Below are positions 15,718 to 23,272 of a DNA stretch of 64,000 bases, in pieces. Below the pieces are notes generated by a model, which saw nothing but the letters and a program-made list of their open reading frames with translations, did not search any database and was not told where the DNA came from. The position numbers and the translations under genes are program-made. Every line of letters begins with the position of its first letter. The stretch's first letter is position 1. The DNA comes from Pseudorhizobium endolithicum (GTDB taxonomy: Bacteria > Pseudomonadota > Alphaproteobacteria > Rhizobiales > Rhizobiaceae): positions 1 through 64,000 of the forward strand of contig NZ_CABFWF030000014.1 in assembly GCF_902153245.2 (NCBI RefSeq), written 5' to 3'.

Positions 15718-16731
15718 TCAGTTCTTTGCGAACACGTAATCCGTTTCCTGCCGCAGCACCTCGCCGGGCCGGAGCACGCCGTTCGGGAAATTCGGATGGT
15801 TCACGGCATCCGGCCATACCTGCGTCTCGAGACAGAAGCCGGCGAAGGGACCGTAGCGGCGGCCTTCCAGCCCCGGCACCGGGACATCGAGCTTGAAGCC
15901 GGAATAGAACTGGATGCCGGGCTCCGTCGTGCGCACCTCCAGCGAGACACCGGAATGCACACTGCGAGCCAAAGCCACCGAACGCTTGACCACCCGCTCT
16001 TCCGACAGGCAGAAATTGTGGTCGAACAGAACCTGGCTGCCGCCCTGTTTCCGGTTCATCGGCCCCATGGCCCTGAGGTCGAAGACCGTTCCATCGACCG
16101 GCAACAGCCGGCCCGTCGGGCACTGGCGCTCATCGACCTCCACGATGTCATCGGCGGCGATCATGATGTCGTGGCCTAGGGGGGTTTCGTGGCCGTCGAG
16201 GTTGAAATAGGTGTGCTGGCAGATGTTGCAGGGCGTCGGCTGGTCCGCGGTCGACTCGTAGAGCACGTTGAGCGCACCGTTGCCGGCCAGGTGATAGGTG
16301 GCGGTGACGGTGCAGTTGCCGGGATAGCCGGCGCGGCCGTCGGGGTCGGTGATCCGCAGCACGACCCTGTTCTCCGCAAGATCAAGAATGTCCCAGTTGC
16401 GCTTGGCGATGCCGTCGCTTCCGCCATGCAGATGGGTGACGCCCTTCTCGTTGAGTTCCAGCTGGTAGGACTCGCCGTCCAGTTCGAACTGCCCCCCGGT
16501 GATGCGGTTGGCGCAGCGCCCCGGCGTCGCTCCGAAATAGGAGGAATAGCGGGGGTAGTCGTCGAAGGTATCGAAACCGAGAACGAGCGGTGCTTCGTGT
16601 CCCTCGAGGCGCAGATCCTGGATGACAGCGCCCCAGGTCATGACATGCGCGGTCAAGCCGCCGCCGCGGATCGCTACCCGAGAGACCGTTTCTCCGCTTG
16701 CAGTCGTTCCGAAGACTTCGCGCTCAGCCAT
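15718..16731 (-). CDS. galM: Aldose 1-epimerase (galactose mutarotase)
   Basis: 337-residue GalM, which interconverts alpha and beta anomers of aldoses. Motifs include GRCANRI near residue 72, THLHGG with the catalytic His, QHTYFNLDGH, and GFCLETQVWPDAVNHPNFP with the catalytic Glu. The ATG has GGAGG at ideal spacing. No sugar operon is adjacent, so the substrate is not indicated by context. The VWA gene lies 66 bp upstream on the same strand. Confidence 0.94.
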   Translation of the reverse strand: MAEREVFGTTASGETVSRVAIRGGGLTAHVMTWGAVIQDLRLEGHEAPLVLGFDTFDDYPRYSSYFGATPGRCANRITGGQFELDGESYQLELNEKGVTHLHGGSDGIAKRNWDILDLAENRVVLRITDPDGRAGYPGNCTVTATYHLAGNGALNVLYESTADQPTPCNICQHTYFNLDGHETPLGHDIMIAADDIVEVDERQCPTGRLLPVDGTVFDLRAMGPMNRKQGGSQVLFDHNFCLSEERVVKRSVALARSVHSGVSLEVRTTEPGIQFYSGFKLDVPVPGLEGRRYGPFAGFCLETQVWPDAVNHPNFPNGVLRPGEVLRQETDYVFAKN

Positions 16732-16797: not shown

Positions 16798-17979
16798 TCA
16801 TCGGCTGAGGGCGCGGGTTGCCTGCTCCAGGCCGCCGAGGGTGAGAGGATACATCTGTCCCGACAGGAGATGCCGGACGAGGCCGATCGAGTGAGTATGC
16901 TGCCAATGTCCTTCCGGCACCGGATTGAGCCAGATCGAGCGTCGGAAATGCTCCGTCATGCGCCGCAGCCAGACCTCGCCCGGCTCGCGGTTCCAGTGCT
17001 CCACCGAACCGCCCGGATGGGTGATCTCGTACGGGCTCATGGAGGCGTCGCCGACGAAGACGACGCGGTAGTCGCTGCCGAAACCGTTGATGATCGTCTC
17101 CGTCGCGATCCGTTCGGACCGGCGGCTATTGTCCTTCCACACGCTTTCATAGAGGCAGTTGTGGAAATAGAAGTGCTCCAGGTGGCGAAATTCGCTTCGC
17201 GCCGCCGAAAACAGCTCCTCGACGTCGCGGATATGATCGTCCATCGAGCCTCCGACGTCGAAGAACATCAGGAGCTTCACCGCATTGCGCCGCTCCGGCC
17301 GGGTGCGCACGTCCAGATAGCCGTGCTCCGCCGTCGACCGGATCGTGCCGGGCAAGTCGAACTCCTCCGCCGCTCCCTCGCGCACCCAGCGCCGCAGCCG
17401 GCGCAGCGCGATCTTGATGGTGCGGGTACCGAGCTCGACCGTATCGTCCAGATCCGCGAACTCCCGCCGATCCCAGACCTTCACCGCACGGCGATGACGC
17501 GAACCGTCCTGCCCGATGCGCACCCCTTCCGGATTGTAGCCATGGGCGCCGAAGGGCGAAGTGCCTGCAGTGCCTATCCACTTGGAGCCGCCCTGATGGC
17601 GACCCTTCTGCTCTTCCAGCCGCCGACGAAGGGTCTCCATGAGCTTGTCGAAACCGCCGAGAGCCTCGACCAGTCCCTTCTCCCCCTCCGTCAGGTGCCG
17701 TTCTGCCAACTTCCGCAGCCATTCCTCCGGCAGGTCGGCCGCGGCAGGCCCGGAGCCGCCAACTGCAGATTGGAGACCGCGAAAACGGGCGGCGAAGACC
17801 CGGTCGAACCGGTCGATATGACGCTCGTCCTTCACCAGGCAGGTACGGGCGAGGAAATAGAACGCCTCGACATCGAAATCCGCCAGCCCCTGCTTCATCC
17901 CCTCCATGAGCGAGAGGTACTCCCGCAAGGTGACCGGGACCTTCGCAGCCTTCAGCTCGAGGAAGAAGGAAAGCAGCAT
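16798..17979 (-). CDS. CoxE-like VWA-domain protein (MoxR partner)
   Basis: 393-residue VWA/CoxE-like protein. The first 230 residues are helical (MLLSFFLELKAAKVPVTLREYL), with a central EFADLDDTVELGTRTIKIALRRLRRW region. The VWA part starts at MFFDVGGSMDDH (about residue 240), where the MIDAS DxSxS reads D-V-G-G-S, so the first Ser is Gly. Such proteins work with MoxR AAA+ ATPases as metal-insertion or complex-maturation chaperones. The gene begins one base after the metA stop, implying co-transcription and probably translational coupling with metA; the likely MoxR partner lies on the other side of metA. Confidence 0.88.
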   Translation of the reverse strand: MLLSFFLELKAAKVPVTLREYLSLMEGMKQGLADFDVEAFYFLARTCLVKDERHIDRFDRVFAARFRGLQSAVGGSGPAAADLPEEWLRKLAERHLTEGEKGLVEALGGFDKLMETLRRRLEEQKGRHQGGSKWIGTAGTSPFGAHGYNPEGVRIGQDGSRHRRAVKVWDRREFADLDDTVELGTRTIKIALRRLRRWVREGAAEEFDLPGTIRSTAEHGYLDVRTRPERRNAVKLLMFFDVGGSMDDHIRDVEELFSAARSEFRHLEHFYFHNCLYESVWKDNSRRSERIATETIINGFGSDYRVVFVGDASMSPYEITHPGGSVEHWNREPGEVWLRRMTEHFRRSIWLNPVPEGHWQHTHSIGLVRHLLSGQMYPLTLGGLEQATRALSR

Positions 17980-17980
17980 C

Positions 17981-18901
17981 CTAGACCGTACCGATCTTCT
18001 CCAGCTCGTACGACGTCGTCTGGTAGATCTCGTTGATCCAATTACCGAACAGGAGATGGGCATGGCTGCGCCAGCGGTTCTGAGGCGGCAGCGTCACGTC
18101 GTTGTGGGGGAAGTAGTCGTGCGGCATCTTGATCGGGATGCCGGCGTTCACGTCGCGGAAATATTCGTCCGCCAGGGATGTGGAGTCGTATTCGACGTGG
18201 TTGAACATATAGAGCCGCCGCCCCTTTGCCTCTTCCACGAGGCATACGCCCATCTCGTCCGATTCCATGAGGATCTTGAGGTCCGGCACCTTCTCGATGT
18301 CCTGGCGCCGCACCTCGGTCCAGCGCGACACCGGCACCTGGAAATCGTCGGAGAAGCCGGTCAGGTAGACCGATGCAGGACACAGGTTGCGGTGCCGGTA
18401 GACACCAAACGCCTTCTCCTTCAGCTCATGCTTCGGCACGCCGTGGAAATGGTAGATCGCCGCCATGGCGCCCCAGCAGACATTCATGGTCGAATGGACG
18501 TTGGTGGTGGTCCAGTCGAGGATCTGCTGCATCTCGTCCCAGTAGGTGACGCTTTCGAACGGCAGTGTTTCCACCGGCGCGCCCGTGATGATGAAGCCGT
18601 CGAACTTGCGGTCCTTCACCTCCTCCCACGTCTCGTAGAAGGCGAGCAGGTGCTCTTCGGAGGTGTTCTTCGCCTTGTGGCCGCCGATCCTGACCAGCGA
18701 CAGCTCCACCTGCAGCGGACTGGCACCGACCAGCCGCGCCATCTGCATCTCGGTCTTGATCTTGTTGGGCATGAGATTGAGGAGCCCGATCTGCAGCGGG
18801 CGGATATCCTGGCGGATGGCGACTGTCTCGGTCATCACGCGCACACCCTCTTGCACGAGGATTTCGAAAGCCGGCAGCGTATCGGGAATCTTGATCGGCA
18901 T
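17981..18901 (-). CDS. metA: Homoserine O-acyltransferase MetA (probably acetyl-CoA-using)
   Basis: 306-residue MetA/HTS-family enzyme, which acylates L-homoserine as the first committed step of methionine synthesis. Catalytic Cys142 is in [15 protein letters not shown], with the family His and Glu downstream (MFNHVEYD). Residue 111 is Glu (TGAPVE); in this family Glu111 is associated with acetyl-CoA and Gly111, as in E. coli, with succinyl-CoA, so acetyltransferase (MetAA) activity is inferred. The ATG at 18901 gives the family N-terminus [17 protein letters not shown] riboswitch and terminator precede it. The VWA gene follows after one base. Confidence 0.95.
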
Positions 18902-18910
18902 CGCACACTC

Positions 18911-18949
18911 ACAAAACAAAAAGCCGGCGGCGAACAAATCGCAACCGGC
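18911..18949 (-). terminator. Rho-independent terminator of the SAM-II leader
   Basis: The minus strand has GCCGG-TT-GCGA-TTTGT-TCGC-CG-CCGGC followed by TTTTTGTTTT, i.e. a two-part stem with a T tract, between the SAM-II aptamer and the metA start. It is the likely expression platform: SAM binding would favour termination. Confidence 0.75.
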
Positions 18950-18972
18950 GCGTGAAAGTCGACTTCGCGCGG

Positions 18973-19026
18973 CCCTTTAGCGACTTGTTTAACGTGGCTG
19001 CAAGCCGGCCGGCCAAATCACCACGG
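18973..19026 (-). ncRNA. SAM-II riboswitch upstream of metA
   Basis: The minus-strand sequence fits the SAM-II (metA element) consensus of alphaproteobacteria. The P1 stem is CGTGG (19025-19021) with CCACG (18997-18993), with the loop segment TGATTTGGCC and the conserved GCTTGCAGCCACGTTAAACA, ending in the pseudoknot segment GCTAAAGGG (18981-18973). SAM-II aptamers sit ahead of methionine and SAM synthesis genes and turn them off when SAM is high. It starts about 48 bases after the moxR stop. Confidence 0.92.
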
Positions 19027-19074
19027 AACAGCGTTCAATTACGCCCGCGGGTGCCAAAGGTCAAGAAGTGCCGC

Positions 19075-19914
19075 CTATCGCTCCCGACGGGCCAGGAACG
19101 CCATCCGCTCGAAGAGGTGCACATCCTGCTCGTTCTTCAGAAGGGCGCCGTGCAGTTTCGGCAAGGCCGTCTTGATGTTGGCCGCAAGATCGGCGGGATC
19201 GACATCATCGGACACCAGCAATCGGATCCAATCAAGCGCCTCCGACGTCGAAGGCTTCTTGCGCAGTCCCGGCATCTCGCGGATCTCGAAGAAGCGCGCC
19301 AGGGCTTCCCGGACGAGGTCCTGCTTGATGCCGGGATAATGAACCCCGACGATCCGAGACAGCGTATCGGCATCGGGAAAGCGGATGTAGTGGAAGAAGC
19401 ACCGGCGCAGGAAGGCGTCGGGCAGTTCCTTTTCGTTGTTCGAGGTGATGATCACGATGGGACGCACCTTCGCCGTCACCGTCTCCCCCGTCTCGTAGAC
19501 GTGGAACTCCATCCGGTCGAGTTCCTGCAGGAGGTCGTTGGGAAACTCGATATCGGCCTTGTCGATCTCGTCGATCAGCAGAACGGTTTTTCCCGGCGCG
19601 GTAAAGGCCTGCCAAAGCTTGCCCTGCCGGATGTAGTTGCGCACGTCGTTGACGCGCTCGTCGCCGAGCTGGCTGTCGCGCAGCCGCGAGACGGCGTCGT
19701 ATTCGTAGAGCCCCTGCTGCGCCTTCGTCGTGGATTTTATATTCCACTCGATCAGGTGCAGACCGAGCGCCCTGGCGACCTGCCGGGCAAGCTCTGTCTT
19801 TCCGGTGCCCGGCTCGCCCTTGACCAGAAGCGGCCTTTCCAGCCGGATGGCCGCGTTCACGGCGACCATGAGATCCTTGTCGGCGATATAATCCGCGGTA
19901 CCGTGAAACTGCAT
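19075..19914 (-). CDS. MoxR-family AAA+ ATPase
   Basis: 279-residue MoxR ATPase. Walker A is GEPGTGKT (about 34-41), Walker B VLLIDEIDKAD (about 111), sensor 1 is in IITSNNEKELPD, and an arginine finger region FLRRCFFHYI follows. MoxR proteins act with VWA partners in protein-complex maturation or cofactor insertion. Here the VWA/CoxE-like gene is downstream but metA lies between them. The ATG has AAGGG as ribosome site. It is divergent from thiN. Confidence 0.93.
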   Translation of the reverse strand: MQFHGTADYIADKDLMVAVNAAIRLERPLLVKGEPGTGKTELARQVARALGLHLIEWNIKSTTKAQQGLYEYDAVSRLRDSQLGDERVNDVRNYIRQGKLWQAFTAPGKTVLLIDEIDKADIEFPNDLLQELDRMEFHVYETGETVTAKVRPIVIITSNNEKELPDAFLRRCFFHYIRFPDADTLSRIVGVHYPGIKQDLVREALARFFEIREMPGLRKKPSTSEALDWIRLLVSDDVDPADLAANIKTALPKLHGALLKNEQDVHLFERMAFLARRER

Positions 19915-20011: not shown

Positions 20012-20665
20012 ATGACCGGTTCGACCTTCACCATCCTGCTTAGCGGCGACCTTACCCTGACGCCACGCCTGCGCGACACGTTGGCGAGGAGCCGTTTCAT
20101 CGCGGCCGACGGCGGCATGCGCCATGCGGCTACCCTGCAGGTCGAGCCGGAGCTTTGGGTGGGGGATTTCGATTCCACCCCCCGGGAACTGGTCGATGCC
20201 TGGCCGCGCGTGGAACGGCAGCCCTATCCGCCCGCAAAGAACGAAACCGATGGGGAGATCGCAACAGCCGAAGCGATCGAAAGGGGTGCGCGCCGATTGA
20301 TCCTTGCAGGCGCGCTCGGCGGAGAGCGGAGCGACCACGCGTTGCAGCACTTCCTGCACGGCATGAGCCTTGCCGAACGGGGCCTCGACGTGCTTCTCAC
20401 CTCCGGACGCGAGGAGGGTGTGCCTCTGATACCCGCGGTATCGAGGGTCATGGACCTCCCGAGAAGTTCCCTCTTTTCGGTGATAGGCCTCTCCGATCTT
20501 CACGGATTGACGATCAGCAATGCACGCTATCCGCTCGACAGCTTTTCTTTGCCCTTCGGCTCGTCGCGCACCATATCGAACGTCGCGGAAGGCCCCGTCC
20601 GCTTTTCCCTTGATCGCGGCAGGGCGATTATCCTCGCCCGCCCCTATGACCTGACCGGAGCCTGA
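20012..20665 (+). CDS. thiN: Thiamine pyrophosphokinase
   Basis: 217-residue TPK-type enzyme, which transfers pyrophosphate from ATP to thiamine to give TPP. Motifs include AADGGMRHA, VGDFDSTP (the DSD-like metal site) and KNETDGEIA (family D..K..TD.E). The C-terminal beta-sandwich pattern GLTISNARYPLDSFSLPFGSSRTISN is well preserved. I chose the ATG at 20012, preceded by AAGGG. The ABC-F gene begins 4 bases after the stop. The TPP-controlled thiBPQ importer is 2.6 kb downstream, which gives a salvage route: uptake, then pyrophosphorylation. Confidence 0.92.
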   Translation: MTGSTFTILLSGDLTLTPRLRDTLARSRFIAADGGMRHAATLQVEPELWVGDFDSTPRELVDAWPRVERQPYPPAKNETDGEIATAEAIERGARRLILAGALGGERSDHALQHFLHGMSLAERGLDVLLTSGREEGVPLIPAVSRVMDLPRSSLFSVIGLSDLHGLTISNARYPLDSFSLPFGSSRTISNVAEGPVRFSLDRGRAIILARPYDLTGA

Positions 20666-23087: not shown

Positions 23088-23139
23088 CCCCAAGGGAGCA
23101 GCTTGCCAAGCTCCTCCCCGCTCGCTACATCTTCACCGC

Positions 23140-23223
23140 TCTAACGGGGTGCCGCACAGGCGGCTGAGAGGCATTGTCCAACCCGCTGAACCTGATCCGG
23201 TTAGAACCGGCGGAGGGATTAGA
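23140..23223 (+). ncRNA. TPP riboswitch (THI element) of thiBPQ
   Basis: Canonical TPP aptamer. P1 is TCTAA (23140) with TTAGA (23223). GGGGTGC, CTGAGAG at 23164-23170, and ACCCGCTGAACCTGATCCGG with GGCGGAGGGA follow. It lies 50 bases ahead of thiB. No terminator follows; the downstream GAGGAGG ribosome site (23261-23267) could pair with CTCCTC at 23111-23116, so control is probably at translation (inferred). Confidence 0.96.
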
Positions 23224-23272
23224 CGGCTCTTCATCGGCGCCCGATCCTTCTTGCAGCATCGAGGAGGTACCG

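Follow-up and report, generated by a model that had tools for sequence, protein, structure and literature searches.

metA with its SAM-II riboswitch between moxR and a CoxE-type VWA gene: a recurrent gene order around a pair that is lost as a unit

The locus

We analysed a stretch of 64,000 nucleotides from Pseudorhizobium endolithicum (contig NZ_CABFWF030000014.1; this whole stretch is called the window), in which the gene for a MoxR-like AAA+ ATPase and the gene for a von Willebrand factor A (VWA) protein of the CoxE type are separated by metA, which is preceded by an S-adenosylmethionine (SAM) riboswitch of the SAM-II class. MoxR ATPases act with VWA partners in remodelling client enzymes or in loading the cofactors of these enzymes. 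The minus strand carries, in this sequence, moxR, a putative metA promoter, the SAM-II aptamer, a terminator-like hairpin, metA, VWA and then the aldose 1-epimerase gene galM (Table 1). A preliminary description of this DNA had placed metA and its switch between moxR and VWA, with the VWA gene starting one base after the metA stop. Profile and covariance-model matches on the minus strand bear out the arrangement, and the metA/VWA junction indeed reads TAG-G-ATG, a single base separating stop from start. The moxR stop lies 40 bp from the aptamer, and the putative metA promoter falls inside this interval.

Table 1. Features of the moxR-metA-VWA locus and its flanks, in window coordinates
Feature	Position	Strand	Basis
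moxR-like AAA+ ATPase gene (279 aa)	19075..19914	-	AAA and AAA_5 above Pfam cut-off
Putative metA promoter, TTGAC-N18-TAATT	19037..19064	-	placed by a pattern built from the genus alignment
SAM-II (SAM_alpha, RF00521) riboswitch aptamer	18957..19034	-	82.9 bits against a gathering score of 36
Intrinsic terminator-like hairpin and T-run, between aptamer and metA ATG	~18913..18949	-	fold, alignment
metA, homoserine O-acyltransferase	17981..18901	-	PF04204, 437 bits
VWA_CoxE-type partner gene (393 aa)	16798..17979	-	PF05762 VWA_CoxE, 34.6 bits against a cut-off of 26.4
Aldose 1-epimerase (galM) gene, downstream neighbour	15718..16731	-	PF01263
Thiamin pyrophosphokinase gene, divergent upstream neighbour	20012..20665	+	PF04263

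The MoxR-like protein has the Walker A motif GEPGTGKT in 96 of 97 orthologues and a Walker B motif of the LLIDEID type in 90 of the 97. The window protein scores 20.6 bits with AAA_3 (PF07726), which we take to be the Pfam model for MoxR, under its cut-off of 27, and it scores above the cut-off of AAA_5; no NCBIfam model matched it above cut-off. When solved structures were searched, Midasin chains were the sole matches to moxR at E 1e-5, and VWA had no match at E 0.1. The metal-ion-dependent adhesion site (MIDAS) of VWA takes the form DxGxS in 118 of 119 class orthologues (DVGGSM in 82, DIGGSM in 33, DAGGSM in 2 and DSGGSM in 1), and no motif of this kind was found in the remaining one. The family thus departs from the canonical DxSxS, and the DxGxS form may mark a separate VWA subfamily. 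Constraint on VWA is strong, with 129 of 393 columns at least 97% identical among 120 sequences. The window MetA scores 482.4 bits with the NCBIfam model MetA_acetyl (cut-off 460.5) and 408.9 with the succinyl model, under the cut-off of 495; NCBIfam names it as the acetyl-transferring kind.

Gene order in the family, the order and the class

Gene order was surveyed in 151 genomes of the window's family, 199 of its order and 240 of its class. The regions fetched were selected by choice: from the family, 60 of the 67 loci in which moxR and VWA are at most 15 kb apart; from the order, 40 loci; and from the class, 20 loci among the 97 genomes that have a VWA match. The moxR-metA-VWA order, on one strand and within 15 kb, is found in 29 of the 151 family genomes, that is, in 29 of the 64 that have all three genes, a recurrence far above chance. 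SAM-II lies directly before metA in 25 of these 29. In another 17 of the 64, moxR and VWA remain linked within 15 kb, separated by 465-6133 bp, and metA is elsewhere; the other 18 are broken by contig ends or rearranged. Relatives in which moxR and VWA adjoin and metA is elsewhere had been put forward in the preliminary description as a sign of a one-off rearrangement. The 17 genomes do have metA elsewhere, but their moxR and VWA are not adjacent, and in the three genomes in which the two truly adjoin (G047, G063 and G164, with a gap of 15 bp) there is no metA match at all. These three could be relics of the old adjacent state or secondary losses.

Beyond the family, a same-strand arrangement with metA upstream of VWA, at a distance of 3.2-10 kb, is seen in 10 genomes from four other families of the order, from a hand-counted base of 20 non-family genomes with VWA and a strong metA match (E <1e-100). 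Six of the 10 have moxR upstream of metA; the stretch fetched from each of the other four shows no moxR. Between metA and VWA we find a YcjX-like gene in all 10 loci, a DUF697 gene in nine and a histidine-phosphatase gene in eight. No SAM-II match precedes metA in the 10 loci at the gathering score, or in five of them at E 1; the window's family is the only one in which we saw SAM-II ahead of metA. The suggestion in the preliminary description that metA came here by a chance, one-off insertion does not fit with an order that turns up in different genera and families (29 of 151 family genomes and the 10 genomes of four other families); the moxR-metA-VWA order is old and recurrent.

At the level of the class, VWA matches are present in 97 of 240 genomes and metA in 51, and on shared contigs the two are never closer than ~70 kb. 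The gap between moxR and VWA outside the order is 4-99 bp in 13 of the 20 class loci, in agreement with the earlier statement that the genes of such pairs usually adjoin, and is 2.1-2.9 kb in four; in the remaining three the gap was unresolved or the stretch was without moxR. The simplest history would be an adjacent pair that was split within the order, metA being one of several genes that now lie between its halves.

The intervening genes are named from sequence clusters, of which one member each was assigned by Pfam (His_Phos_1, YcjX-like DUF463, DUF697 and GNAT); a fifth cluster had no Pfam match. The histidine-phosphatase/YcjX-like/DUF697 block was noted in other families of this order, where it separates VWA from moxR (or metA), at L192-L194, L196-L199, L213, L220, L221, L224 and L225. 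In many members of the family a GNAT gene (~148 aa) lies between moxR (or metA) and VWA, as at L134, L140, L142, L161-L163, L182, L184, L185 and other loci, and once between the halves of the pair outside the order (L237). The GNAT protein could be a third partner or a passenger.

Joint presence and loss of moxR and VWA

Despite their separation, moxR and VWA are present or absent together. Both VWA and the orthologous moxR are found in 92 of the 151 family genomes and neither in 57, while two have moxR alone and none has VWA alone; the two moxR-only genomes are one that is 68% complete and one in which contig ends interrupt moxR. We scored moxR as present only if clearly orthologous (E <1e-130), weak VWA matches in G096 and G149 as absent, and a partial VWA match in G095 as present. 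Of the same 151 genomes, 64 carry metA and VWA, 32 only metA, 28 only VWA and 27 neither (odds ratio 1.9, Fisher p 0.06, uncorrected for kinship), and metA is nearly independent of the moxR/VWA pair.

Named metA loci show the same behaviour. Among the best 80 of at least 597 matching stretches, with the pair state judged in flanks of up to 4 kb, 19 have moxR and VWA at metA and 60 have neither in the flanks; in one, L330, VWA is present and moxR is out of reach. A whole-genome search covered 20 of the best 80 named genomes, and found both genes in 4/4 pair-bearing controls; none of the 16 pair-less genomes (completeness unstated) matched VWA, or matched moxR at more than 39% identity.

We followed the pair state on a metA tree that joins the named loci with those of the genus, 106 rows less six duplicate metA rows (L254, L256, L258, L262, L263 and L269), which leaves 100. 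The tree contains at least 11 changes of pair state, nine with branches below 80 collapsed and seven with branches below 95 collapsed. If only losses are allowed from a pair-bearing root, the numbers are 15, 12 and 7, respectively, and a single clade of pair-less rows is rejected (p-AU, 1.2e-68). Because the pair is widespread in the class, and because a GNAT gene has been left between metA and galM in four pair-less loci (L296, L316, L321 and L333), the changes point to loss rather than gain. Remnants of moxR or VWA were sought at the 66 pair-less loci; one weak match (L321, 28% identity, E 7e-4) lies outside the metA-galM gap and was not counted.

Joint loss might also have come about by recombination, in which the segment from the thiamin pyrophosphokinase gene to galM was swapped for that of pair-less relatives, with no shared function of moxR and VWA behind it. 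The genes on the two flanks are often alike in both states, so that a double crossover could exchange the segment. This account is nevertheless improbable, since moxR and VWA co-occur also where both sit apart from metA, the GNAT gene persists in the four pair-less loci, and some pair-less rows stand beside pair-bearing sisters, which argues that metA was not replaced from afar there: L306 (Sinorhizobium saheli) groups with pair-bearing L308 (Ensifer sp. MPMI2T) with support of 100, L255 (Rhizobium halophilum) with the pair-bearing window and G009 with support of 99, and L326 falls in a set with three pair-bearing rows with support of 98. Thus, moxR and VWA behave as one unit while metA stays.

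These distributions also bear on a functional tie, raised in the preliminary description, in which the MoxR/VWA pair would remodel MetA or a SAM-linked client and the cluster would be kept for that purpose. The position of metA between moxR and VWA in 29 of 64 genomes, its place upstream of VWA on the same strand in the four other families, the tight fit of VWA against metA and the slight excess of co-occurrence would all suit such a tie. However, VWA is absent from 32 of the 96 metA-bearing family genomes and metA from 28 of the 92 VWA-bearing ones, 17 family genomes keep moxR and VWA near each other with metA elsewhere, and metA stays put after ~7-15 joint losses. We therefore regard a functional tie to SAM metabolism as very improbable.

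The probable metA transcription unit

The SAM-II aptamer is located upstream of a methionine gene, metA. We aligned 26 loci from the genus, in all of which the -35 element TTGAC is invariant and is followed by a spacer and a -10 element of the TAT/TAA type just 5' of the aptamer. The aptamer comes next, and then a hairpin and T-run ahead of the metA start codon, both recognisable by eye in 26/26, the terminator-like stem being weaker in L027. The promoter-aptamer-terminator block does not differ between the 15 pair-bearing and the 11 pair-less loci. In a subset of eight sequences, one of 11 hairpin pairs switches from A-U to G-C, and two of the eight have an outer pair that no longer matches. 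The promoter pattern derived from the alignment matches all 26 loci, a control that is not independent of the pattern, as both come from the same 26 loci; an earlier pattern was dropped after it matched 0/26 in its own control. A sigma-70/terminator scan reported nothing on the minus strand and so missed both the metA promoter and the hairpin, the latter a structure with interior mismatches, and the silence of the scan was not used as evidence. The genome of the window has a second SAM-II copy (G000:C15:187018-187096), presumably before metZ.

Published work describes a similar layout. The founding SAM-II paper reports SAM binding for the switch of A. tumefaciens, near-consensus promoter elements just 5' of P1 and terminators in many members (PMC1273637). 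Regulation of metA by a SAM-II switch has been described in S. meliloti, in which metA has a strong promoter, a validated terminator between AUG1 and AUG2 and translation from AUG2, and in which high SAM lowers translation and stabilises the RNA (PMC9373788). The hairpin of the window occupies the same relative place as that validated terminator. Given the conserved block of promoter, switch and terminator, and the same layout in S. meliloti, metA very likely starts its own transcript, with moxR outside that unit.

The metA-VWA junction

If metA starts its own transcript, the question is whether VWA shares it. The junction was compared in 100 different metA loci, 34 pair-bearing and 66 pair-less, with next-gene starts extrapolated from protein alignments; L330 was scored as pair-bearing though VWA alone is visible there (564 bp of contig precede metA). 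Of the 34 pair-bearing loci, 33 have the next gene at a distance of -1 to 33 nt after the metA stop, and L330 has it at 93 nt; the median is 11. The next gene is VWA in 29 and a GNAT acetyltransferase gene in five. In the pair-less loci (65 of 66 with a next gene), the median gap is 126 nt, and galM is next in the 40 rows inspected. Terminator-like signals stand behind metA in two of the 34 pair-bearing loci, both reaching into the VWA gene, versus 22 of the 65 pair-less loci, although these counts are not independent of the spacing, since short gaps leave scant room. In several genera VWA follows metA at so short a distance that one would naturally expect the two to share a transcript, and we predict a metA-VWA operon on good indirect evidence.

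Alternatively, VWA could be insulated or have its own promoter inside metA, in which case its expression would not follow SAM. Other families carry VWA behind unrelated genes and thus express it from other units, and a one-mismatch promoter site at metA position 717 is present in nine of 34 pair-bearing loci compared to 2.4 expected from codon shuffles. The same site, however, turns up in pair-less loci as well (13 of 66, with 5.15 expected); it is above chance yet not tied to VWA. The exact metA-type pattern, which matches 26/26 promoter controls, was found inside metA in 0/34 pair-bearing loci; codon shuffles also predict ~0, and this result excludes only an internal promoter of the metA type. 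With the junction spacing in favour of an operon, a separate VWA promoter appears unlikely. The layout of the locus gives good support to the plausible reading that SAM would govern VWA together with metA, but not moxR.

The flanking genes are shared with pair-less loci. In nine pair-less loci of the genus, galM follows metA and the thiamin pyrophosphokinase gene lies upstream of metA, and galM is also next to metA in nearly all pair-less named loci. The window has a thiamin pyrophosphate (TPP) riboswitch at 23135-23235 (+; 67.7 bits), which with the thiamin pyrophosphokinase gene makes up a thiamin-related neighbourhood.

Discussion

We consider it probable that an old moxR/VWA pair has been split and that its VWA half has been captured by a SAM-controlled metA operon, with MetA a passenger rather than a client. 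In this model, an old alphaproteobacterial pair of MoxR ATPase and VWA genes, mostly adjacent in other orders, would have been separated in this order by several genes, metA among them, and in the window's family metA would have come to lie after moxR, equipped with a promoter, a SAM-II switch and a terminator of its own. VWA (or the GNAT gene and then VWA) would be the distal cistron of the metA operon, and moxR would be transcribed alone. At low SAM, with the metA promoter and switch on, VWA would be made from the metA transcript, its translation probably close-coupled or re-initiated; at high SAM, the output of both MetA and VWA would be lower. MoxR and VWA would still form one AAA+/VWA remodelling machine, as knowledge of the family and the joint loss suggest. 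That the two act together has good evidence in their joint vanishing, again and again, despite their separation. MetA would be a genomic passenger; it is unlikely to be the client because MetA and the pair each so often occur without the other.

Several points weigh against this interpretation. The direction and size of the SAM effect on a distal gene are uncertain, since in S. meliloti the switch works at the level of translation, and high SAM stabilises the mRNA (PMC9373788). The SAM-II match is absent from four of the 29 ordered genomes: none reached threshold in G108, and in G058, G160 and G124 (L150, L151 and L152), where the moxR-metA gaps are 55-60 bp and the metA-VWA gaps 20-42 bp, all three genes may be on one transcript. 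VWA can run from other units, because the pair is apart from metA in 17 family genomes, and an internal VWA promoter, unlikely as we judge it, would uncouple VWA from SAM. The loss counts rest on a quick tree from metA alone, and the sample as a whole consists of chosen loci from assemblies of uneven quality with a one-gene tree.

The locus offers a natural experiment: the presumed halves of a machine belong to separate transcription units and are parted by the gene of an unrelated enzyme, and yet they are repeatedly lost together. Comparison of close relatives with and without the pair could reveal the client. If VWA is read from the metA transcript, the locus would be an example of how a function unrelated to a riboswitch can fall under its control. 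We did not find this arrangement in print, nor a paper that joins SAM-II with MoxR, in a search mostly without subscription papers. A further step, in which the SAM level sets how much of the scarce VWA subunit there is, and through it how active the machine is, with the ATPase half produced separately, is a tentative and rather doubtful extension; a riboswitch would then control a chaperone that lies outside the pathway of its metabolite, by virtue of gene order alone.

Comparison with known systems

The SAM-II switches before metA in the founding paper (PMC1273637) and in S. meliloti (PMC9373788) belong to the same aptamer family as that of the window, and share with it a promoter a few nucleotides before P1 and a terminator between the aptamer and the metA start. 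S. meliloti differs in the gene upstream of the metA switch, which is SMc03796 (PMC2573895), a putative L-PSP endoribonuclease (PMC2848018); thus, moxR is not directly upstream of metA there. A word search of the S. meliloti switch study found no mention of moxR or of an operon (PMC9373788).

Among MoxR/VWA pairs, CoxD and CoxE of Oligotropha carboxidovorans, likewise an alphaproteobacterium, are an AAA+ ATPase and CoxE that serve the assembly of CO dehydrogenase (PMC3471820, PMC4240915). The VWA gene of the window resembles CoxE in matching the CoxE Pfam model, and no cox structural genes are among the annotated neighbours in the window (about 12.9-20.7 kb). NorQ and NorD of Paracoccus denitrificans are also a MoxR AAA+ ATPase with a VWA partner, and the data are consistent with six ATPases to one VWA protein (PMC9976466). 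NorD is a 70 kDa protein with a MIDAS of the form DxSxS-T-D, compared to DxGxS in the window VWA, and the MIDAS residues of NorD are needed for client activity and not for the complex (PMC9976466). The norQ and norD genes share the nor operon with their client (PMC9976466), whereas the pair in the window is split.

To our knowledge, neither metA nor a riboswitch is part of the ravA-viaA operon of E. coli. RavA and ViaA are likewise a MoxR/VWA pair (PMC3893208, PMC10585395, PMC9489729), and their levels are unequal, about 350 and 90 (PMC3893208). A low, separately set level of VWA would fit a machine of six ATPases to one VWA protein. The two figures for RavA and ViaA are reportedly per cell. 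Unlike the split pair of the window, ravA and viaA form one operon (PMC9489729).

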